64,000 nt of DNA from Rhodospirillales bacterium (lineage in GTDB: Bacteria; Pseudomonadota; Alphaproteobacteria; Rhodospirillales; Shumkoniaceae). The DNA lies in the NCBI GenBank assembly GCA_016776725.1, contig JADHSV010000006.1, positions 1 through 64,000 on the forward strand, written 5' to 3'. Under the pieces are notes generated by a model, which saw only the letters and a program-made list of their open reading frames with translations, was not told the origin of the DNA and did not search any database. How positions within the stretch are numbered: the stretch's first letter is position 1; every line of letters begins with the position of its first letter. Made by a program: the position numbers and the translations under genes. Positions 53,284 through 64,000 of the stretch are shown here, one piece after another.

Positions 53284-53426
53284 GTTCCCCCGTTTATTCT
53301 CGTGGCATCATAGGTTGCTATTTGGCGCGGGTTCGGGCCTATGCAAGTATGAATTCTGAACGTATAACACGCGCGGATGACAATGCACGCGAACCACCGT
53401 TTGAACAACTGCCGACTTGCCGCGCC

Positions 53427-54389
53427 ATGAGGATTCTGTTCATCACCGCGACCCGCATCGGCGATGCCGTTCTATCGACGGGAATCCTGGATCACCTGAT
53501 CGGGCGCTATCCGGGCGCGCGCATTACGGTGGCCTGCGGTCCGGCGGCGGCGCCGTTGTTCGAAGCCGTTCCCAATTTGGAACGCATCATCGTTCTGCGC
53601 AAAAAGAAATGGTCCCTTCACTGGCTGGGTCTGTGGACCTCGTGCGTGGGGCAATTCTGGGATGTGATGATAGATTTGCGCCGCGCGCCGCTATCGTATT
53701 TGCTGGCCGGGCGCGACACGCGCCATCTGCCGCGCAACAGCGCGGACGCGCACCGCGTGGTCGATCTGGCCGGATTGCTAGGGCTGGCCAACGATCCCCC
53801 GGCGCCGCGACTGTGGGCCAGCGAAGCCCACGAAGGGCGCGTCGGTGAATTGATCGGCGAAGGCCCGCCGGTTCTGGCCATCGGTCCCACAGCCAACTGG
53901 GAGGCCAAGACCTGGCGGCCCGGATCATTTGCCGAATTGATAGCGCGGCTAACCGCGCCGGACGGCATCTTGCCGGGTGCGCGTGTTGCCTTTTTCGGTC
54001 ACGCAGATGAACGCGCGGGCGTGGCGGAACTGATCGATACGGTGCCGGTGGATCGATGCATCGATCTGATGGGCGGACCGCATCTTCTGGAGGTGTTCGC
54101 GTGTCTGAAACGCTGCGCGCTTTATGTGGGCAACGATTCGGGGTTGATGCATATTTCGGCGGCTGCCGCAATTCCGACCCTGGGCCTTTTCGGCCCCAGT
54201 CGCGAAGAGCTTTACGCGCCTTGGGGGGCGCGGTGTGCCGTCGTCCGAGGTCCCAAGGAGTTTTTCGATATATTCCCCGAAAATTTCGACCATCGCGACA
54301 CGGCGTCATTGATGGACGGTCTGAGCGTGGACGCGGTGGAAGAAGCGGCCAACGGCCTGTGGCGGGCATCGAAGGAGGCGCAGGCATGA
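53427..54389 (+). CDS. Glycosyltransferase family 9 (heptosyltransferase-like)
   Basis: A 320-residue GT-B enzyme of the ADP-heptose:LPS heptosyltransferase family. It starts RILFITATRIGDAVLSTGIL, has a TANWEAKTWRPGSFAELI nucleotide-sugar motif (about residues 152-170) and the YVGNDSGLMHISAAAAIPTLGLFGP acceptor/donor motif (about 230-254). It would add an inner-core sugar to lipopolysaccharide. An in-frame ATG (53349) and TTG (53322) upstream would lengthen it, but the family normally starts at the RILF strand. It is the first gene of the operon and overlaps the next by four bases. Confidence 0.87.
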   Translation: MRILFITATRIGDAVLSTGILDHLIGRYPGARITVACGPAAAPLFEAVPNLERIIVLRKKKWSLHWLGLWTSCVGQFWDVMIDLRRAPLSYLLAGRDTRHLPRNSADAHRVVDLAGLLGLANDPPAPRLWASEAHEGRVGELIGEGPPVLAIGPTANWEAKTWRPGSFAELIARLTAPDGILPGARVAFFGHADERAGVAELIDTVPVDRCIDLMGGPHLLEVFACLKRCALYVGNDSGLMHISAAAAIPTLGLFGPSREELYAPWGARCAVVRGPKEFFDIFPENFDHRDTASLMDGLSVDAVEEAANGLWRASKEAQA

Positions 54390-55144
54390 GCGCACCCAAA
54401 CTGAGCGCCGTAATCTCGGTTCACAACGAAGCGCACCAGCTTGCCGATTGTCTGGAACGGCTGAAGTTTGCCAATGAAATTGTTGTGGCGCTGGATAAAT
54501 GCACGGATGCATCCGGGGACATCGCTAAAACGTTCACCGATCGCATCATCGAGGGAAGCTGGCCCACCGAAGGCCAGCGCCGCAATGCCGCCATCGCGGC
54601 TTGTCATGGCGACTGGATTTTCGAGATTGACGCCGATGAGCGCGTGCCCGACGCGCTGGCCGATGAAATCCGCCGGACCATCGAAACCACGGCCTTCGAC
54701 TGGCACGAAATCCTGGTCGATAACTATATCGGCCAACGTCTGGTGCGCTGGGGTTGGGGGGCGTCGTTCGGCAAGGCAGCCTATCCGGGCCTGTTTCGCA
54801 AAGGCGTAAAGGTATGGGGCGATCAGCGGGTCCATCCGCGCCTTGAATGGTCGGGGCGCAAGGGACCCATGTTGAAGGCGCGGCTCGATCATTATGTGGA
54901 TCGCAACATCTCCGACATGATCCGCAGGCTCGATAACTACTCGACGGCACGGGCGGCGGATTTGCGGCAATCGGGCGATATCGGGTCGTTGCCCAACAAC
55001 GTCAGGCGTCTGTTTTCGCGTTTCATCAAATGCTATGTCATGCGCAAGGGGTATCGCGAGGGCGGTTACGGTTTGTTGATCGCGCTCTTTGCCGGACTTT
55101 TTCCGCTGATCTCCCACCTCAAGGCGCGGCTGGAGAAAGGCTAG
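54386..55144 (+). CDS. Glycosyltransferase family 2 (LPS core type)
   Basis: A 252-residue GT-A glycosyltransferase. It starts LSAVISVHNEAHQLADCLERL and has the DxD-like site in IFEIDADERV (about residues 77-86). The segment GEGQRRNAA-like (WPTEGQRRNAAI, about 59-70) and the C-terminal RFIKCYVMRKGYREGGYG segment resemble WaaE/KdtX core beta-glucosyltransferases. The last 30 residues are hydrophobic with basic ends and may associate with the membrane. It overlaps the GT9 gene by four bases, so both likely act on the same glycan. Confidence 0.87.
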   Translation: MSAPKLSAVISVHNEAHQLADCLERLKFANEIVVALDKCTDASGDIAKTFTDRIIEGSWPTEGQRRNAAIAACHGDWIFEIDADERVPDALADEIRRTIETTAFDWHEILVDNYIGQRLVRWGWGASFGKAAYPGLFRKGVKVWGDQRVHPRLEWSGRKGPMLKARLDHYVDRNISDMIRRLDNYSTARAADLRQSGDIGSLPNNVRRLFSRFIKCYVMRKGYREGGYGLLIALFAGLFPLISHLKARLEKG

Positions 55145-55147
55145 AGC

Positions 55148-56182
55148 ATGGCTCGTATCGTTTTCGCCGACGACGGTATCCAATTCGATGGCCGCACCAT
55201 TGAAGAACGTCCGCTCGGCGGCGTCGAAACCTCCGTCGTGTTTTTGCTGGAGGAATTGGCCAAGCGCGGACACGAGGTCATCGCGCGCAACAAATGCGCC
55301 GCTCCACTTGTTCACAACGGCGTTGATTGGGCCCCCATCGGCGGCAATATGCCCGATGAAGCCGATCTCTATATCGCCAATCGCGGCGATAAGCTGTTGC
55401 CGCTGATGCCGCGCGCCAAACGAACGGTTTTCTGGATACACAATCCGGCCCAGTATTTGCTGAAGTGGCGGTATTTGTCGAAGCTGTGGCGCATCAAGCC
55501 GGCCATTGTGTTTATCGGCGATTATCACGAAACCACCTATCCGCGCTGGGCTCCGGCGGGGGATCGCATCGTGATCCCGTACGGCCTGCCGGACGTTTTC
55601 CGCAAGGCTGAAACGGCCAGTGAACCGCCACCGCCACGCGCCGTCTTCACATCCAATCCGCTACGTTCGCTGGATTGGTTGCTGGATCTGTGGGTCGGCG
55701 AAATCCGCCCCAAGGTTCCGGGTGCGGAATTGCATGTTTTTTCGGGCCCCCGAACCTACGGCAGCGCGGGCGAGGCCAAGGCCGACCCCATGAAAACGGT
55801 GCTGGATAAGGCGCGCGCGCTGGCGGGAGAGGGCGTCGTTTTGCGCGATCCGCTGCCCAAAAAAGAACTGGCCGGCGAATTGCGCGCTTCTCGCGTCATG
55901 CTTTATCGTGGCGATCTGAACGAAACGTTTTGTCTGGCCCTTGGCGAGGCGCAGGCGGTCGGGGTTCCCGCCGTGGTGCAAAAGCTGGGTTCCGTGGTCG
56001 AGCGGGTCGTTGACGGGGAAACCGGCTTCGTCGCCGATGATGACGCCGCTTTCGCCGATGCTGCCATTCGCCTGCTGGGCGATGACGATCTTTGGTCCCG
56101 GTGCCACGATGGCGCTTTGGCAAAACAAAGACGGTGGGGGTGGCCCGAAGCGGCTGCAGCTTTTGAGGGGTTGATTCCATAA
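55148..56182 (+). CDS. Glycosyltransferase family 4-like, first copy
   Basis: A 344-residue GT-B enzyme. The N-terminal domain contains the GGVETSVVFLLEELAKRGHEV acceptor motif (split by a short loop). The C-terminal domain has the VMLYRGDLNETFCLALGEAQAVGVP donor-site motif with the catalytic E-x7-E-like pair around residues 257-265, then GETGFVADDD. The precise sugar is not predictable. It sits three bases after the GT2 gene and overlaps the next glycosyltransferase by one base, so it is part of the same glycan assembly operon. Confidence 0.83.
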   Translation: MARIVFADDGIQFDGRTIEERPLGGVETSVVFLLEELAKRGHEVIARNKCAAPLVHNGVDWAPIGGNMPDEADLYIANRGDKLLPLMPRAKRTVFWIHNPAQYLLKWRYLSKLWRIKPAIVFIGDYHETTYPRWAPAGDRIVIPYGLPDVFRKAETASEPPPPRAVFTSNPLRSLDWLLDLWVGEIRPKVPGAELHVFSGPRTYGSAGEAKADPMKTVLDKARALAGEGVVLRDPLPKKELAGELRASRVMLYRGDLNETFCLALGEAQAVGVPAVVQKLGSVVERVVDGETGFVADDDAAFADAAIRLLGDDDLWSRCHDGALAKQRRWGWPEAAAAFEGLIP

Positions 56183-57234
56183 TGCGCGTTCTTCAAGCCA
56201 TGGCCGGAGCAAAACACGGCGGTGCGGAAGCCTTTTTCATGCGGCTTGTTCCGGCTATTCATCGGGCAGGCGTCGAGCAGTTAGTGATGATCCGCAGGAA
56301 CGCCGAACGGGCTGCGGCATTGCGCGAAGCGGGCATCGAACCGGTGGAAGTTCCCTTTGGCGGGGCGCTGGATATGGTCACGCCCCTGGCGTTCAGGCGT
56401 GAAATCAAGGGGTTCAAGCCCGATGTGGTGCTGACCTGGATGAACCGTGCGACGAAATTCTGTCCGGCCGGTGATTTCGTACACGTCAGCCGCCTGGGCG
56501 GTTATTACGATTTGAAATACCATCAGGCTTGCGACCATCTGGTCGGCAACACGCCGGACATTCGCGATTATCTTATTGGCGAGGGCTGGCCCGCCGAAAA
56601 GGCGCACTATCTTCCCAATTTCGTCGATCAGGCGTCCGCCGAGCCGTTTGATCGAAAAGAACTGTACACGCCCTATAACGCCCGTGTGATTTTCGCCATG
56701 GGCCGCCTTCACGAAAACAAGGCGTTCGACGTGCTTCTGGACGCCATGGCGCGCATGCCGGATGTTTACCTGTGGATCGCGGGCGACGGACCGTTGCGCG
56801 AAGAACTTGATACCCAGGCCGAAAGCACCGGCGTCAAACCCCGGATACGCTTTCTGGGTTGGCGCGAAGATACGGCAGCACTTCTGGCGGCGTGCGACAT
56901 ATTTGTTTGTCCGTCGCGGCATGAGCCGCTGGGCAATGTGGTGCTTGAAGCCTGGGCGGCCCGTAAACCCGTCGTCGCGGCTGACAGCGCCGGGCCGGGC
57001 ATGCTGATCGATCATATGAAAAGCGGGGTTTTGATCCCGGTCGACGATTCGGAAAGTCTGGCCAACGCAATTCTGGCCGTGTTCGAGGACGACGACCTGC
57101 GAGGCCAGATTGCCCATGGCGGCCGGGCCGCGTTTGAAGCGAATTACACGGAACCCATTGTCGTTGGCAAGTACATCAAACTGTTCGAGCGTCTGATGGC
57201 TGAGAAGTCTCATAATTCCAAGGACCCTGGATAA
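56182..57234 (+). CDS. Glycosyltransferase family 4, second copy
   Basis: A 350-residue GT-B retaining glycosyltransferase. The N-terminus (RVLQAMAGAKHGGAEAFFMRL) and the Rossmann donor domain (IFAMGRLHENKAFDVLLDAMA, then CPSRHEPLGNVVLEAWAARKPVVA with the catalytic E-x7-E around residues 252-260) are textbook GT4. It shares one base with the preceding gene's end and one with asnB's start (ATAATG / TAATG-type junctions), implying coupled translation. Its likely role is core or O-chain assembly of lipopolysaccharide. Confidence 0.9.
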   Translation: MRVLQAMAGAKHGGAEAFFMRLVPAIHRAGVEQLVMIRRNAERAAALREAGIEPVEVPFGGALDMVTPLAFRREIKGFKPDVVLTWMNRATKFCPAGDFVHVSRLGGYYDLKYHQACDHLVGNTPDIRDYLIGEGWPAEKAHYLPNFVDQASAEPFDRKELYTPYNARVIFAMGRLHENKAFDVLLDAMARMPDVYLWIAGDGPLREELDTQAESTGVKPRIRFLGWREDTAALLAACDIFVCPSRHEPLGNVVLEAWAARKPVVAADSAGPGMLIDHMKSGVLIPVDDSESLANAILAVFEDDDLRGQIAHGGRAAFEANYTEPIVVGKYIKLFERLMAEKSHNSKDPG

Positions 57235-59009
57235 TGTGCGGCATCGCCGGATTAATGACTGCTGACGGCCAGGCGCCGGACCAGCGGGTGTTAAAGATCC
57301 TGGCGGATGCGTTGGCGCATCGCGGACCCGATGGCCGGGGAATGCACGTGGTGGGATCGGTGGGCCTTGTGCAGACCCGTCTGGCCATCATCGATCTGGA
57401 AACCGGCGATCAACCGCTGTTTGCGCAATCCGCGCAAGGGAACAGCGCGGCGCTTGTCGCCAATGGCGAGATTTACAATTTCATCGAACTGCGCGCCGGG
57501 ATGGGCGAGGTTGGTTTCACGACCAAATCGGATTGCGAACCGCCGTTGCATCTGTATCTGCGACACGGGATCGAATATACGCGCCATCTGCGCGGCATGT
57601 ATTCCATCGCCATTCATGATGCGGACCGCGACCGCCTGGTTCTCTCGCGCGACCCCTTCGGAATAAAGCCGATCTACTACATTGAAAACGAGACCGGCTT
57701 CGCGTTTGCTTCCGAACCCCAGGCCCTGATAGCCGCGGGATTGGCGGCGCCGGTGTTGCGCAAGGGTCCGCCGGACGAACTGCTGCAGCTGCAGTTCACG
57801 ACCGGCCGCGCAACTGTTTTCGACGGCATTGAACGGGTTTTGCCCGGCGAAACCATCGTTGTCGAAAAGGCTCGTATCATTGAACGAAGCCAGGCCGGCG
57901 CGTTGCCCGCGGAAGCGCCGGTCCCGCGCGGGGCCGCCGACGCTCTGGACGAGTTGGATCGGGTTCTCAATGACAGTGTCGGCGTCCATCAGCGATCGGA
58001 CGTGCCGTTCGCCATGTTTCTTTCGGGCGGCGTCGATTCGTCCGTTCTGCTGGCCATGATGGCGCGCCTTAACGAACGGCCTGTGCGGGCCTATACAGCC
58101 GGTTTCCCCGGCACAAGCGCGCGGGATGAACGCGACCACGCCCGCGCGGTGGCCAAGGCCACAGGGACCGATCATGTGGAAGTGGCCTTTGATGAGGGTG
58201 ACTTTTGGAATCTGCTTCCTGAAATTGCCGCCGCCATGGACGACCCGGCCGCCGATTACGCGGTGCTGCCCACCTACAAGCTGGCCCAGGCCGTTCATGC
58301 CGATGGCCTGAAGGTGGTTCTGAGCGGCGAGGGTGGCGACGAACTATTCGCCGGGTATGGACGGTACCGTACCGCGACCCGAAACTGGCCATTGGCGAAG
58401 CCCATGCGCCGCAAGGGCATCTTCAATGGTCTCGGCGTTTTGCGCGATGCGGATAAGGCGCGATCCTGGCGTGCCGGGATTGCGGCCGCCGAGCGCACCT
58501 TTGACCGGACAGCGCTGACCGGTCTGCAGATGATGCAGGCCATCGACTGTGTTGACTGGCTTCCCCATGATCTTCTGACGAAACTGGACCGGTGCCTGAT
58601 GGCCCATGGCGTCGAGGGGCGGGTTCCGTTTCTTGATGCACGGGTGGCTGAATTCGCTTTCCGTTTGCCAGATACCCTTAAGGTCAAGCGCGGGCTTGGC
58701 AAATGGATTTTGCGCCGCTGGTTGGAAACGGGCTTGCCCGTATCCAAACCGTTTGCCAAAAAACGTGGCTTCACGGTGCCGGTCGGTGAATGGATTGCCT
58801 CGCGAGGGAGCCAGTTGGGGCAATTGGTCGCCGTCCAGCCGGGGATTATTGAGGTTTGCCAGGCGGGCGCGGTGGAAAAGCTGTTTGCGGCGGGCGGGAA
58901 GAAACAGGGAAAGGCGGCCTGGACGCTGCTTTTCTATGCGTTGTGGCATCGGCGGCACATTCTGGGCAAGATCCCGGCGGGCGATGTGTTTGAGACGTTG
59001 GCGGAGTAG
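57234..59009 (+). CDS. asnB: Asparagine synthase (glutamine-hydrolysing) family amidotransferase
   Basis: A 591-residue two-domain enzyme. The N-terminal class II glutaminase starts at the processed cysteine (MCGIAG) and the synthetase domain carries the PP-loop S264-G-G-V-D-S. It uses glutamine and ATP to amidate a carboxylate. AsnB-like enzymes inside sugar clusters can amidate uronic acids on surface glycans instead of making asparagine. Here it is embedded after four glycosyltransferases, so either role is possible. It is followed after six bases by the ArsR-like gene. Confidence 0.9.
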   Translation: MCGIAGLMTADGQAPDQRVLKILADALAHRGPDGRGMHVVGSVGLVQTRLAIIDLETGDQPLFAQSAQGNSAALVANGEIYNFIELRAGMGEVGFTTKSDCEPPLHLYLRHGIEYTRHLRGMYSIAIHDADRDRLVLSRDPFGIKPIYYIENETGFAFASEPQALIAAGLAAPVLRKGPPDELLQLQFTTGRATVFDGIERVLPGETIVVEKARIIERSQAGALPAEAPVPRGAADALDELDRVLNDSVGVHQRSDVPFAMFLSGGVDSSVLLAMMARLNERPVRAYTAGFPGTSARDERDHARAVAKATGTDHVEVAFDEGDFWNLLPEIAAAMDDPAADYAVLPTYKLAQAVHADGLKVVLSGEGGDELFAGYGRYRTATRNWPLAKPMRRKGIFNGLGVLRDADKARSWRAGIAAAERTFDRTALTGLQMMQAIDCVDWLPHDLLTKLDRCLMAHGVEGRVPFLDARVAEFAFRLPDTLKVKRGLGKWILRRWLETGLPVSKPFAKKRGFTVPVGEWIASRGSQLGQLVAVQPGIIEVCQAGAVEKLFAAGGKKQGKAAWTLLFYALWHRRHILGKIPAGDVFETLAE

Positions 59010-59015
59010 AGATCG

Positions 59016-59459
59016 GTGGCAAGAAAAGTAAGTTGTTCGGTGCGCTGCCTGTCGGAAATCGAGGTCGAAAAGGCGCGGCGCTCACTTGGTGACGCCGATG
59101 CGATCATGGTGCCCTATACCTGCAAGGTCTCCGGAAAAACCGAGGAAATCCTGATGGTTTCCGAAGCCGCGGCCGAAATTCTGGCGGCGACACTGGGCAA
59201 GTTCGGCGGCGTTATGGCGGTGAAGATTTTTGCCGCTGTCGTTTCAACCGAGCTTTGCGCATGTGATATCGCCACCCTGATGGGCGAAGATGAAGAGGAT
59301 GTTCTGGCCGAAATCGACCGCTTGACCGAAGGCGGTTTTTTGTTCGGCCACGAAATCGACGGCATGAATTATTTTGGCGCGGGAAATCCGCCGTTAAGGC
59401 GCTTTTTCCTGAGCCGTTTCGCCGCGTTGAAAATCGGGCCGGACAAGGCTGGGAGTTAG
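59016..59459 (+). CDS. Diverged ArsR/SmtB-like winged-helix protein
   Basis: A 147-residue protein starting at GTG. Residues about 65-125 follow the ArsR winged-helix layout: a KIFAAVVSTELCACDIATLMG helix-turn, then VLAEIDRLTEGGFLFGHEIDGMNYF for the recognition helix and wing. ELCACD is nearly the ELCVCD metal-binding box of ArsR/CadC. The recognition helix is acidic (GEDEEDVLAEID) where DNA-binding members are polar or basic, so DNA binding is doubtful. Two more cysteines (C7, C11) lie in the N-terminal region. Context: between asnB and the ParB-like gene, each 4-6 bases apart. Confidence 0.55.
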   Translation: MARKVSCSVRCLSEIEVEKARRSLGDADAIMVPYTCKVSGKTEEILMVSEAAAEILAATLGKFGGVMAVKIFAAVVSTELCACDIATLMGEDEEDVLAEIDRLTEGGFLFGHEIDGMNYFGAGNPPLRRFFLSRFAALKIGPDKAGS

Positions 59460-59463
59460 GTGC

Positions 59464-59709
59464 ATGAAAACCATCGTTATCAACATCGACAAGATTTATG
59501 TTCCGGTCAAATCGGTGAAGAACGCCGATGATGCACGCGTCGACGCCTTGGCTGAAGAATTCATGGAGACTGGCAAGATCACGCCTATTCGTGTGCGGGA
59601 TGACGGAAAACGATATGTTCTCGTCAACGGGGTTAACCGGCTGGCGGCGATGAAGGCGCTGGGCGAGGAAACCATTGTCGCCTTTCTGGTCCGCGCGGTT
59701 CAGCATTAG
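59464..59709 (+). CDS. Stand-alone ParB/sulfiredoxin-fold domain protein
   Basis: An 81-residue protein consisting almost only of a ParB N-terminal/Srx fold. Residues show NIDKIYVPVKSV, LAEEFMETGKITPIRVR and the box GVNRLAAMKALG (G-x-x-R-x-x-A as in ParB box II). Sulfiredoxins have a catalytic cysteine (GCHR) at this place; here it is valine, so sulfinic-acid reductase activity is unlikely. No DNA-binding helix-turn-helix follows. It lies four bases after the ArsR-like gene and 22 before the M20 peptidase. It could be a nucleotide-binding or protein-interaction module. Confidence 0.65.
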   Translation: MKTIVINIDKIYVPVKSVKNADDARVDALAEEFMETGKITPIRVRDDGKRYVLVNGVNRLAAMKALGEETIVAFLVRAVQH

Positions 59710-59731
59710 TTCCAACAGGAGAAACAAAAAA

Positions 59732-60859
59732 ATGACGAACAATTCCGGCTTCGACACACAGGAAATCCTTGGCGGTATCCGCGAATGGGTTGAAATCGAA
59801 TCACCCACGGATACGCCCGAAGCAACCAATCGCATGGCCGATAAGGTCGAGGCCGACTTTGCAGCCCATGGCGGCAAGATTGACCGCATTGCCGGAACGC
59901 AGGGGTTCGGCGATTGCTTAAAGGTTCGCACGCCCTGGGGCGGTGATGGCAAGGGCATTCTGGTTCTGTCGCACATTGATACGGTTCACCCCATTGGCAC
60001 CCTTGAGCGCCTGCCGTTCAGGGTCGAAGGGGATATCGCCTACGGGCCGGGTATTTTCGATATGAAGGGTGGGGCTTATCTGGGTTTCCACGCGTTTCGC
60101 AACTACTGCCGTCAGGGCAAGGAAACGCCGCTGCCCATCACTTTTCTTTTCAATACCGACGAGGAAATGTGCAGCCGCTCGTCGCGCGACCTGATTATCG
60201 CCGAAGCGCACAAGCACAAGTACGTTCTGGTTCTGGAACCGGCGCGGGACGGCGGCAACGTGGTCGGCGCGCGAAAGGGAACGGCGCGCTTCGTGCTCGA
60301 CATTCAGGGTCGGCCCGCGCATTCGGGGTCGCGTCACGCCGATGGCCGCAGCGCGATTAAGGAACTGGCCCGGCAAATCATAGATATCGAAAGCATGACC
60401 GATTACGAGCGTGAATTGACCGTCAACGTCGGCGTCATTTCGGGCGGCTCGCGGCCCAACGTGATACCGGAGTTCGCTTCCGCCGAGGTCGATATGCGTC
60501 TTCCCACCAAGGCCCTTGCCGACGAAATGATCCCCAAGGTCGCCGGTCTCAAATCCTACGATCCGGACGTTACAATCAAAGTCAGTGGCGGGGCCGAACG
60601 CCCGCCGTTTGAACAGACCGAAGCCGGTGTGGCGCTATTTGAACATGCCCGCAAGGTGGGCGCGGAACTGGGAATGAATCTGGAAGCGGTGAAAGCCGGC
60701 GGCGCATCGGACGCCAACTTCGCCGGGCCGATCACGCCGGCGCTGGATGGCCTGGGCGTCAACGGCGACGGCGCCCACACCATGAACGAACAAATTACCG
60801 TTTCACTGCTGGCGCAGCGCGCGGAACTGTTTTACCGCCTGCTCGGATCGCTGGAGTAA
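59732..60859 (+). CDS. M20-family metallopeptidase (glutamate carboxypeptidase-like)
   Basis: A 375-residue cytoplasmic zinc peptidase. The metal ligands and base are visible: H81 and D83 (SHIDTVH), D110 (FDMKGG), E144-E145 (TDEEM), a downstream glutamate (VLEPARDG) and a C-terminal histidine (GAHTMNEQ). A dimerisation lid domain (about 180-290) splits the catalytic domain, as in CPG2-type glutamate carboxypeptidases. It cleaves an amino acid or acyl group from a small peptide-like substrate that cannot be named. The ATG at 59732 has an AGGAG site ten bases away. It is the last gene of the operon and converges on the cyclase gene. Confidence 0.9.
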   Translation: MTNNSGFDTQEILGGIREWVEIESPTDTPEATNRMADKVEADFAAHGGKIDRIAGTQGFGDCLKVRTPWGGDGKGILVLSHIDTVHPIGTLERLPFRVEGDIAYGPGIFDMKGGAYLGFHAFRNYCRQGKETPLPITFLFNTDEEMCSRSSRDLIIAEAHKHKYVLVLEPARDGGNVVGARKGTARFVLDIQGRPAHSGSRHADGRSAIKELARQIIDIESMTDYERELTVNVGVISGGSRPNVIPEFASAEVDMRLPTKALADEMIPKVAGLKSYDPDVTIKVSGGAERPPFEQTEAGVALFEHARKVGAELGMNLEAVKAGGASDANFAGPITPALDGLGVNGDGAHTMNEQITVSLLAQRAELFYRLLGSLE

Positions 60860-60890: not shown

Positions 60891-63800
60891 TTAGATTTTA
60901 TCCACTAGCAACGCCTTGGCGTTTTTCAGGTCGGCGGTGTCAAACCCTTCGGTGAACCAGCCGTATATTGGCTGGACCAGTTCGCGGGCTTCCTTGGATT
61001 TTCCTTGCGCTTGAAAGAGCCGCGCGAGGCTTATTGCAGCGCGCAGTTCCAGGGACTTCGCGCTCTGTCTCCGCGCGACCGCTATGGCCCGGCTGAAACA
61101 GGCTTCGGCCTGTCCTTGGTTGTCTGCGGATCGGGACAGCAGGAGCTCACCCTTGAGCCGATGAAGTTCTGCTTCCCAGGTTTTCTCGCCGCTCTGCTCC
61201 ACTGACTCTAGCGCTTCTGCGAGTTCAACCAGTCCTCGGTCAGCCTGCCCGGCCTTTCCAAAGGTCTCGGCAAGAAGCGCCAGGAGATAGGATTTGCGTT
61301 GTTCCGTTCCGGTCGCTCGCAGCGCCTGGAGACCCTCTTGAATATCCTTAATCCCTTCGTCGGTCCGCCCTTGAGCCGCCACCGCCCATCCTCGCAAAGC
61401 CTTTGTTGCCGCCGCGAACTGCGGGCCAATACCGTGCTCGGCACACATCGCCAGTGTTGCCTCTGCGTGTTCCTGTGCCAGCCGGGCTTCCCGGCGGAAC
61501 TGCCTGAGAAAGGCTGAGAAGCTGAGCGCCAGAACGAGGCTGAAGGGGTGCGACAGCGTTTCGGCCAAGGCCATTGCCTTGCGCGCCATTTTCTGAGCCT
61601 GATCCGCATAGCCAAGGAACCACAGGGTCAAAGCCGCATGGTTCAGGCAACAGACCCCAGGGTCATGGCCACCATAGATAAAGGCGTGGGAGCCGTGTTC
61701 GTCCAGACTGTAGAGGGCCAGACCCTGGTCCAGGTGCTCTCGGCATGCCGGAAGGTCCGGAAGGCGAAAATAATTTGTCCAGGCTGCGTGGTGAGCCTGC
61801 AAGAGGAGCCCCGAGTCCGGCTGTTGTTTGGCCAGTGCCAGCGCTTCATCCGCCAAGTCTTGCGCCTGCTTGAGCTGACCGCGCTGTTGGCAGACCAACC
61901 ACAATCCCCAGGTAACGGTGAAAAGCTGAGAGACTTCCCCTATTTGGTGGCAAAGTTCACGGCTGCGGAAGTACGTCTGCTCCACTTCCGGCGCCGCCCA
62001 ACCCTTTGTGGACAGCAATGCGGTTGCCAGAGTGAGCCGCATGCCCAGTTCTTTCTTTGAGCGCTCCCGATTTTCGGGAAGGTCGTCCACGAGCTCGAGC
62101 CCCTTGGTAAGGTGAGCGATGGCTTCGAGGTTTGCCGAGCGCTCGACGGCGCGCTGTCCGGCCCGGTGCCAATAGGCGACCGCCGGTTCGATCTGCCCGG
62201 CCACGGTGTAGTGCTGGGCCAATAGCTCCGGTTGGGTCTCGACGGTCTCCGGGAACCGTTGCTCCAGCGCCTCGGCGATCCGCTGGTGGAATTGCCGCCG
62301 GGTGCCCTTCAACAATGACTGATAGGCCACGTCCTGCACCAGGGCATGCTTGAACTCGTATGTGACGTCGGGCGGCAGGTTATGGCGGTAGATGAGGCCC
62401 GCGTCCAGCAGTTGGGAGAGCGCGTCGTCAAGCGCTTCCCCCTCGAGCGGCGATACGGCGGCCAACAGCTCAAGGCTGAACGTCCGGCCCAGGGTGGCCG
62501 CCAGTTGCGCCACCTCCTTGACCTGTGCCAGACGATCCAGCCGGGCCATCAGCGAGTCCTGCAACGAAGCCGGAATGGCAAGCGGCGGCAAGGGCCCCGA
62601 CAGGACATACTGGTCCCCGTCGTCGTCCAGGAGGTCCGATTCCAGCACCGTCTTGGTCAGTTCCTCGACGAACAGCGGCACGCCGTCGGTCTTGGCGGCG
62701 ATCTCGTCGACAATCTCCTCGGGCATGGCCTTGCCCCCTGCGACCTTGGAGATCATCGCGAGGCTCTCCCTGCGGCCGAGGCGGTTAAGGGTGAGTCCGG
62801 TGATGTGAGTACGGTCGCGCCAGGGCGGATCGAACTCGGGCCGGTAGGTGAGTAAAAGAACAACGCGGGACGAGCGCAGATGCTCGATCAACAGGCTCAC
62901 CAACTCCAGCGTCGAGGGATCGATCCAGTGCAAATCCTCGATCAACATCAGCACCGGGTCCCGGGAAGCTATCGCTTCGATCACCGCGACCAGCGCTTCG
63001 AAAATCTTCTTTTTCATCTCGTCGGCGTTCAAGGGCGGCGCTGGATACCTCTCGCCCGTCGGCAGTGACAGAAGGGACGCCAGCAGGGGCTCAATTTCCG
63101 GGACCGGGAGGCCAAGCTCGTCCAGCACCGCCTCCAGCTTGTCCAGCTTCGCCGCCGCGTCGTCTTCTTTGCCAAAGCGCAGGGCGCGCTCGAGGTGGTC
63201 GATGGCAGGGTAAAAGGCGGTGTTCTTGTGAAAGGGCGAGCAATAGTACAGCACCCGGTGGTGAAGCTCGCCCTCCAGTCGTTCGCGGAAACTCCTGACA
63301 ATTCGCGATTTGCCGACCCCGGCTTCGCCCGAAAGCAGGACCACCTGGCCCACGCCGTCCTTCACCTGATCCCACCGTTTGACCAGCAGCCCGATTTCCT
63401 CCTCGCGTCCGACGAGGGGGGTCATGCCCGCCGCGTGAGCCGCGTCAAAGCGGCTTTCCGCAGCGGCTTCGCCGACCACCCGCCAAGCTCGAACCGGGGT
63501 GGAAAACCCCTTCAAATCACGACTTCCCAGGTCTTTATGCTCGAACAGGCCGCTTACCAGGTGATGGGTTGCAGGGGCGATCAGCACCGTGTTGGGCTCG
63601 GCAAGCCCCTGCAGGCGCGCGGCAAGATTCGGCGTCTCGCCCAGAACCGCGCTTTCCTCGGATGCGCCCTCGCCGATCATGTCGCCGACGACCACCAGAC
63701 CGGTGGCGATGCCGATGCGAACCTGCAGCGCAAGGTCGTCCAGGGGGCGCAGTTCGCGCACCGCCTCGACGATGCCGAGGCCGGCCCGTATGGCTCGCTC

Positions 63801-64000
63801 GGCGTCGTCCTCGTGGGCCTGGGGATAGCCGAAATAGACCAGGATACCGTCGCCCATGTAGCGGGCGATGAAGCCCCCGAAGCGCGCAATCACTCCGGCG
63901 CAGCAGTCTTGGTAGGTGTGGATCACCTCACGCAGGTCTTCCGGATCAAGCCTCTCGGAAAGCGCCGTCGAACCGACCAGATCGCAGAACATCACCGTCA
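60891..64000 (-). CDS. Adenylate cyclase / AAA ATPase / TPR signalling protein (5' end outside window)
   Basis: At least 1,036 codons are visible and the frame stays open to the window edge, so the true start is upstream. The visible N-terminus (VMFCDLVGST) begins the class III cyclase domain: metal aspartates in FCDLVG and GDGILVYFG and the NLAARL transition-state motif are kept, so it may be active. A STAND/AAA-type ATPase follows (Walker A GEAGVGKS at about residue 223, Walker B-like VLMLIEDLHW). The C-terminal half (about 560-1030) has many TPR-like helices. Such proteins join cAMP synthesis to a regulated switch. Related proteins often carry a zinc-ribbon or SAM domain first, which would be outside the window. 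Confidence 0.88.
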   Translation of the reverse strand, partial: TVMFCDLVGSTALSERLDPEDLREVIHTYQDCCAGVIARFGGFIARYMGDGILVYFGYPQAHEDDAERAIRAGLGIVEAVRELRPLDDLALQVRIGIATGLVVVGDMIGEGASEESAVLGETPNLAARLQGLAEPNTVLIAPATHHLVSGLFEHKDLGSRDLKGFSTPVRAWRVVGEAAAESRFDAAHAAGMTPLVGREEEIGLLVKRWDQVKDGVGQVVLLSGEAGVGKSRIVRSFRERLEGELHHRVLYYCSPFHKNTAFYPAIDHLERALRFGKEDDAAAKLDKLEAVLDELGLPVPEIEPLLASLLSLPTGERYPAPPLNADEMKKKIFEALVAVIEAIASRDPVLMLIEDLHWIDPSTLELVSLLIEHLRSSRVVLLLTYRPEFDPPWRDRTHITGLTLNRLGRRESLAMISKVAGGKAMPEEIVDEIAAKTDGVPLFVEELTKTVLESDLLDDDGDQYVLSGPLPPLAIPASLQDSLMARLDRLAQVKEVAQLAATLGRTFSLELLAAVSPLEGEALDDALSQLLDAGLIYRHNLPPDVTYEFKHALVQDVAYQSLLKGTRRQFHQRIAEALEQRFPETVETQPELLAQHYTVAGQIEPAVAYWHRAGQRAVERSANLEAIAHLTKGLELVDDLPENRERSKKELGMRLTLATALLSTKGWAAPEVEQTYFRSRELCHQIGEVSQLFTVTWGLWLVCQQRGQLKQAQDLADEALALAKQQPDSGLLLQAHHAAWTNYFRLPDLPACREHLDQGLALYSLDEHGSHAFIYGGHDPGVCCLNHAALTLWFLGYADQAQKMARKAMALAETLSHPFSLVLALSFSAFLRQFRREARLAQEHAEATLAMCAEHGIGPQFAAATKALRGWAVAAQGRTDEGIKDIQEGLQALRATGTEQRKSYLLALLAETFGKAGQADRGLVELAEALESVEQSGEKTWEAELHRLKGELLLSRSADNQGQAEACFSRAIAVARRQSAKSLELRAAISLARLFQAQGKSKEARELVQPIYGWFTEGFDTADLKNAKALLVDKI

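Follow-up and report, generated by a model that had tools for sequence, protein, structure and literature searches.

An asparagine synthase-like gene closes a glycosyltransferase cluster across the Rhodospirillales and is followed by three added genes in one family

A stretch of 64,000 nucleotides from a Rhodospirillales bacterium of the family Shumkoniaceae (contig JADHSV010000006.1, positions 1 to 64,000 of the forward strand; GenBank assembly GCA_016776725.1), referred to here as the window, was analysed around positions 57234-60859, where a first-pass annotation had proposed an uncharacterised set of four genes headed by asnB. The source assembly (G000) comprises 2.48 Mb on 52 contigs and is 74% complete. 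All four open reading frames (ORFs) were confirmed on the plus strand, with gaps of 6, 4 and 22 bases between them, as had been described. The first, asnB (57234..59009), encodes an AsnB-type glutamine-dependent amidotransferase of 591 amino acids (TIGR01536, 414 bits against a cut-off of 267); the second (59016..59459) encodes a 147 amino acid protein of ArsR/SmtB winged-helix fold, the third (59464..59709) an 81 amino acid minimal single-domain ParB/sulfiredoxin-fold protein (PF02195, 23.8 bits, just below the cut-off of 26.3), and the fourth (59732..60859) an M20 metallohydrolase of the carboxypeptidase G2 type, 375 amino acids long from its ATG (PF01546, 94 bits). The earlier domain assignments thus held in family scans, in a profile match to SmtB and in Foldseek comparisons. 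The 147 amino acid ORF has a GTG start, while codon statistics and relatives also permit a start near position 59040.

The set does not begin at asnB, as had been supposed. A glycosyltransferase (GT) gene, designated GT4b (56182..57234, plus strand; PF13692, 126 bits), shares its last base with asnB, and both belong to a run of co-directional genes that starts near position 53427, well upstream, with a GT9 gene of the heptosyltransferase family (53427..54389; PF01075, 85 bits), whose frame is open from position 53322 and whose orthologues within the order-wide cluster described below are of about 320 amino acids. This is followed on the same strand by a GT2 gene (54389..55144; PF00535, 41 bits), the upstream position of which is conserved in the order, and by a first GT4 gene, GT4a (55148..56182; PF13692, 48 bits), and from GT9 to asnB the five genes are separated by overlaps or by gaps of no more than 3 bases. 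Scans for promoters and terminators in the region gave no excess over shuffled sequences.

Of 297 genomes of the order, 238 have an AsnB orthologue, which at E ≤1e-120 is nearly always single-copy. Among the 30 best-scoring AsnB loci GT4b adjoined asnB in 29, often with the same one-base overlap, and GT4a preceded GT4b in most; as these are the best-scoring loci, uniformity across the order may be overstated, and ORF calls in relatives came from a simple script based on codon scores. In the larger loci, which come from many families, a ygfZ gene on the opposite strand was followed by GT9-GT2-(GT2)-GT4a-GT4b-asnB. This order-wide presence, the adjacency to GT4b and the gene order of the larger loci place AsnB, conserved across the order, at the end of an old GT9-GT2-GT4-GT4-asnB cluster. 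The region as a whole is read as the 3' end of a surface-glycan gene cluster with a lineage-specific tail; the glycan is probably the lipopolysaccharide (LPS) core, a label inferred from the GT9 heptosyltransferase-family gene.

Farther downstream of asnB a dihydroorotase gene was found in many families. A 350 amino acid amidohydrolase adjoining asnB in other families, initially suspected of being a second degradative partner, proved to be such a dihydroorotase (TIGR00856). Two types of the enzyme, PRK09060-like (loci L192, L193, L224 and L226) and TIGR00856 (L173, L185, L213 and L217), occur downstream of asnB according to family, which looks like displacement in place.

The catalytic motifs of AsnB were present, including the N-terminal Cys2 and an SGGVDS motif at position 264. 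The residues with which E. coli AsnB binds aspartate, at positions 384 and 387, were compared by alignment; Arg387 corresponded to Lys450, which was Lys in 35 of 35 orthologues, and the site three residues before it was Leu447, next to a conserved Asp446. In the E. coli enzyme aspartate is bound through an Asp and an Arg (PMC8554201). No asparaginyl-tRNA synthetase (AsnRS, asnS) scored above its cut-off among 17 genomes tested, while GatB was found in 16 of the 17 and in all fourteen of those of high quality; Asn-tRNA is therefore made by transamidation (GatCAB), and free asparagine, and with it AsnB, is not needed for charging. These results bear on the rather unlikely explanation that AsnB is the cell's ordinary asparagine synthetase and that its position behind glycosyltransferase genes is historical. 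Its score above the curated cut-off of the asparagine synthase equivalog TIGR01536 and its near-constant single copy agree with that explanation, whereas the maintenance of the GT4b adjacency across many families, the transamidation route and the invariant Lys in place of Arg387 speak against it.

The three genes behind asnB have a much narrower distribution. The order ArsR-fold, ParB-fold, M20 after asnB was kept in four genomes (G000, G001, G003 and G004) representing three genera of one family, with 50-73% identity between the proteins of the four-gene locus, and the same locus occurs in the nearest named relatives (L058 and L059, both Rhodospirillales bacterium). In G001, G003 and G004 GT4b is the sole transferase before asnB and GT4a is missing, so that the four trio-bearing genomes have in common a five-gene set of GT4b, asnB and the trio. 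Conservation of this order exceeds chance, because it recurs in G001, G003 and G004 although synonymous sites are near saturation between the window and G003 (dS at least 1.6) and the genes are under purifying selection between G001 and G004 (dN/dS 0.02-0.20). A fifth genome of the family, G002, retains asnB and its glycosyltransferase cluster, lacks the trio and carries its M20 gene on another contig. The AsnB of G002 (L207) groups with those of other families, apart from the four of its own.

All four genes were found together in this one family only, and the adjacency in distant genera that had been suggested as a sign of a functional unit was not encountered; more than 230 genomes have AsnB orthologues with no trio. 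In genus g36, of another family, asnB and the parB-like gene are adjacent and the other two genes are absent. A shared origin of this adjacency in both families was not rejected by an approximately unbiased (AU) test (P =0.19), and the best ParB tree, built on 83 columns and poorly resolved, does not join the asnB-adjacent copies. It is concluded that the trio was added behind asnB in a single uncultured family of Rhodospirillales. The view of the four genes as a unit is upheld to the extent that their order is conserved within a family, while asnB itself belongs with the upstream glycosyltransferases.

The first-pass annotation had gone further and proposed a closed module of amide or peptide metabolism, in which an amide or peptide made by AsnB would be degraded by the M20 enzyme, with the two small proteins acting as sensors of the product. 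The order kept across three genera and the asnB-parB adjacency in g36 are compatible with such a module, which is nevertheless judged highly improbable given the many AsnB-bearing genomes with no trio, the state of G002, the restriction of M20-asnB adjacency to a single family and the location of most parB-like genes elsewhere. A maker/breaker pairing of AsnB and M20 found no support, and the module was rejected on the gene neighbourhoods of the AsnB, M20 and ParB-like genes. The pattern named beforehand as contradicting the module, small genes lying mostly apart from asnB or the M20 gene, was observed for the ParB-like gene, and the M20 gene likewise departs from the module, but the close ArsR-like orthologues do not show it.

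The 147 amino acid protein had no match in Pfam or NCBIfam, and a profile built from it matched SmtB/ArsR structures (E 2.5e-10). Its predicted structure (pLDDT 89) consists of a helix-hairpin N-terminal extension and a winged helix, for which the best Foldseek matches were SmtB, AntR and SqrR. Close orthologues were confined to the family of the window and always lay beside asnB, in contrast to the ParB-like genes considered below; more distant relatives lay beside a two-component system (L054) or 2-oxoglutarate dehydrogenase genes (L055), and a class-wide search with an ArsR-fold profile gave only weak matches outside the family. All four family members have an acidic recognition helix, its net charge being -3 to -7 (-7 in the window protein) against +2 in SmtB; the SmtB segment was taken from the profile alignment, and a CadC segment also served for comparison. 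The protein is unlikely to be an ordinary ArsR repressor of the operon that senses metal and binds DNA: the fold and an ELCxCD motif in the window copy would suit such a role, but the helix charge does not, and the CxC pair is absent from two of the four copies (G001 and G004). Because the recognition helix is acidic, the protein would be expected to work through protein contacts rather than by reading DNA.

The 81 amino acid protein belongs to a family in which PF02195 was detected in 20 of 20 relatives. Its model (pLDDT 87) was closest in Foldseek to sulfiredoxin (TM-score 0.83) and then to ParB, and box I and box II (TPIxVR and GxHR-type motifs) are present. Of 58 relatives, 56 retain the GxHR loop; the window copy reads GVNR, with Asn replacing the conserved His, and is one of two such among the 58. 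In sulfiredoxin the corresponding motif is GGCHR, with the catalytic Cys before His-Arg; this Cys was never seen in the 58 relatives, which have L, V, Y, I or K at that position. The protein ends at residue 81, and box III and the helix-turn-helix (HTH) and dimerisation domains are absent.

With a threshold of 100 bits, members of the ParB-like family were detected in 63 genomes of the order; 7 of these have one no more than 5 kb from asnB, and the other 56 are counted as having it apart from asnB (the positions of both genes were available for 39 of the 63). Of 79 named loci, 77 fell in the ParB-like cluster after gene calling, 5 with asnB beside the gene and 72 without. Orphan genes of this family are widespread in Alphaproteobacteria, and NCBI already labels members as "ParB N-terminal domain-containing protein"; a search of 50,697 phage records gave no match. 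Microvirga genomes (L067-L135) carry several copies each, many of them on plasmids, near genes for cold-shock proteins, DUF6894 proteins and trehalose-phosphate synthase. In Sneathiella the ParB-like gene has an M20-like neighbour, which encodes a 486 amino acid protein on the opposite strand and was put down to chance.

The nearest solved structure to the M20 enzyme is 1CG2, matched over the whole length (E 7.7e-39). Metal-ligand and catalytic Glu motifs were found at SHIDT 80, GIFDMKGG 107, NTDEE 141, LEPA 168 and GDGAHT 345, and from these the enzyme is probably active. The gene adjoins asnB only in the family of the window and elsewhere stands in varied contexts with no common theme. Beyond the M20 gene, on the minus strand (60891-63995), lies a large protein that combines a guanylate cyclase domain, an AAA_16 ATPase and TPR repeats and extends to the end of the window; it resembles a TOMM kinase/cyclase model (627 bits against a cut-off of 706), the N-terminal part of which is absent in the window.

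With somewhat better than even confidence, the locus is interpreted as the end of a surface-glycan cluster in which AsnB amidates a sugar acid, the trio being passengers or modulators. Amidation of a sugar is likelier than supply of asparagine for protein synthesis, because of the GatCAB route and the lack of AsnRS, and is the best inference given the glycosyltransferase context. AsnB-type enzymes, WbpS (PGN_1234) and WbqG, make uronamides in surface sugars (PMC7468200). By analogy with these, AsnB would use glutamine and ATP to convert the carboxyl group of a uronic acid, built or transferred by GT4b, to an amide, and the surface glycan would thereby lose a negative charge. The three tail genes, for which the expectation is weaker, would be co-transcribed passengers or modulators; the M20 enzyme may cleave, in the cytoplasm, an N-acyl or peptide-like amide with a C-terminal acidic residue, and the ParB-fold protein may bind a nucleotide through its GxHR-type loop.

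Several points weigh against this interpretation. The cluster yielded no gene for sugar-acid biosynthesis, and the substrate of AsnB is not readable from its sequence and may possibly be aspartate. AsnB scores below the cut-off of the WbpS-type family TIGR03108 (363 against 817 bits). The tRNA argument rests on relatives, as G000 itself gave no match to gatB or asnS. A functional tie of the trio to AsnB is putative. A different target is also conceivable, since AsnB homologues of Gram-positive bacteria amidate the meso-diaminopimelate (mDAP) of peptidoglycan, and Acetobacteraceae have been reported to contain mDAP in amidated form (PMC8554201). That AsnB acts on mDAP and not on a sugar is considered very unlikely, as the conserved part of the cluster consists of glycosyltransferases and no peptidoglycan gene was identified there. 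A more elaborate version of sugar amidation, in which the ParB-fold nucleotide binder and the ArsR-fold protein, without DNA binding, would form an NTP-dependent regulator of the amidotransferase that tunes glycan charge, is a long shot.

An AsnB annotated as asparagine synthase thus ends a glycosyltransferase cluster order-wide, in genomes that make Asn-tRNA by transamidation, which renders amidation of a surface sugar directly testable; the locus also points to a widespread family of 81-residue single-domain ParB-fold proteins in Alphaproteobacteria.

The statement that no system of this composition has been described still stands, in that none turned up among the searchable papers, where literature on the LPS core and on Azospirillum likewise held nothing on the cluster. 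Individual components can be set beside known systems. The 147 amino acid protein has the winged-helix fold and helix order of ArsR/SmtB repressors, and differs from them in its N-terminal helix-hairpin extension, its acidic recognition helix and a metal site that is not conserved. The M20 enzyme shares a full-length match and metal-ligand motifs with carboxypeptidase G2, but lies slightly below the cut-off of the closest NCBIfam family (NF005678; 372.8 bits against 386). The 81 amino acid protein resembles the orphans of the ParB-CTPase fold in its ParB/Srx fold, its GxxR loop and its location outside parAB operons, and differs in its length, its alphaproteobacterial distribution and its lack of a box III region, HTH or dimerisation domain; in a 2025 survey of that fold most single-domain bacterial members are long, forms of about 100 amino acids occur in phages and some archaea, and nucleotide specificity is not predictable from sequence (PMC12704722). 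This minimal ParB-fold family is the most distinctive piece of the locus, annotated and yet, as far as found, the subject of no study.

At the level of the whole locus, the N-acetylglutaminylglutamine amide locus (AsnO, TIGR03104) also combines an AsnB relative and a metallopeptidase gene in one operon. Its peptidase is of the M42 type and it includes the Ngg acetyltransferase, whereas in the window AsnB reaches 280 bits against a cut-off of 570, the peptidase is M20 and there is no acetyltransferase gene. WbpS and WbqG (TIGR03108 type) are, like the window AsnB, two-domain amidotransferases encoded among glycosyltransferase genes, and the product in each case would be a uronamide, though on its score against TIGR03108 the window AsnB forms a separate subfamily. 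Accordingly, the cluster is a variation on glycan clusters with AsnB that are already known, rather than a novel stand-alone system of amide metabolism.

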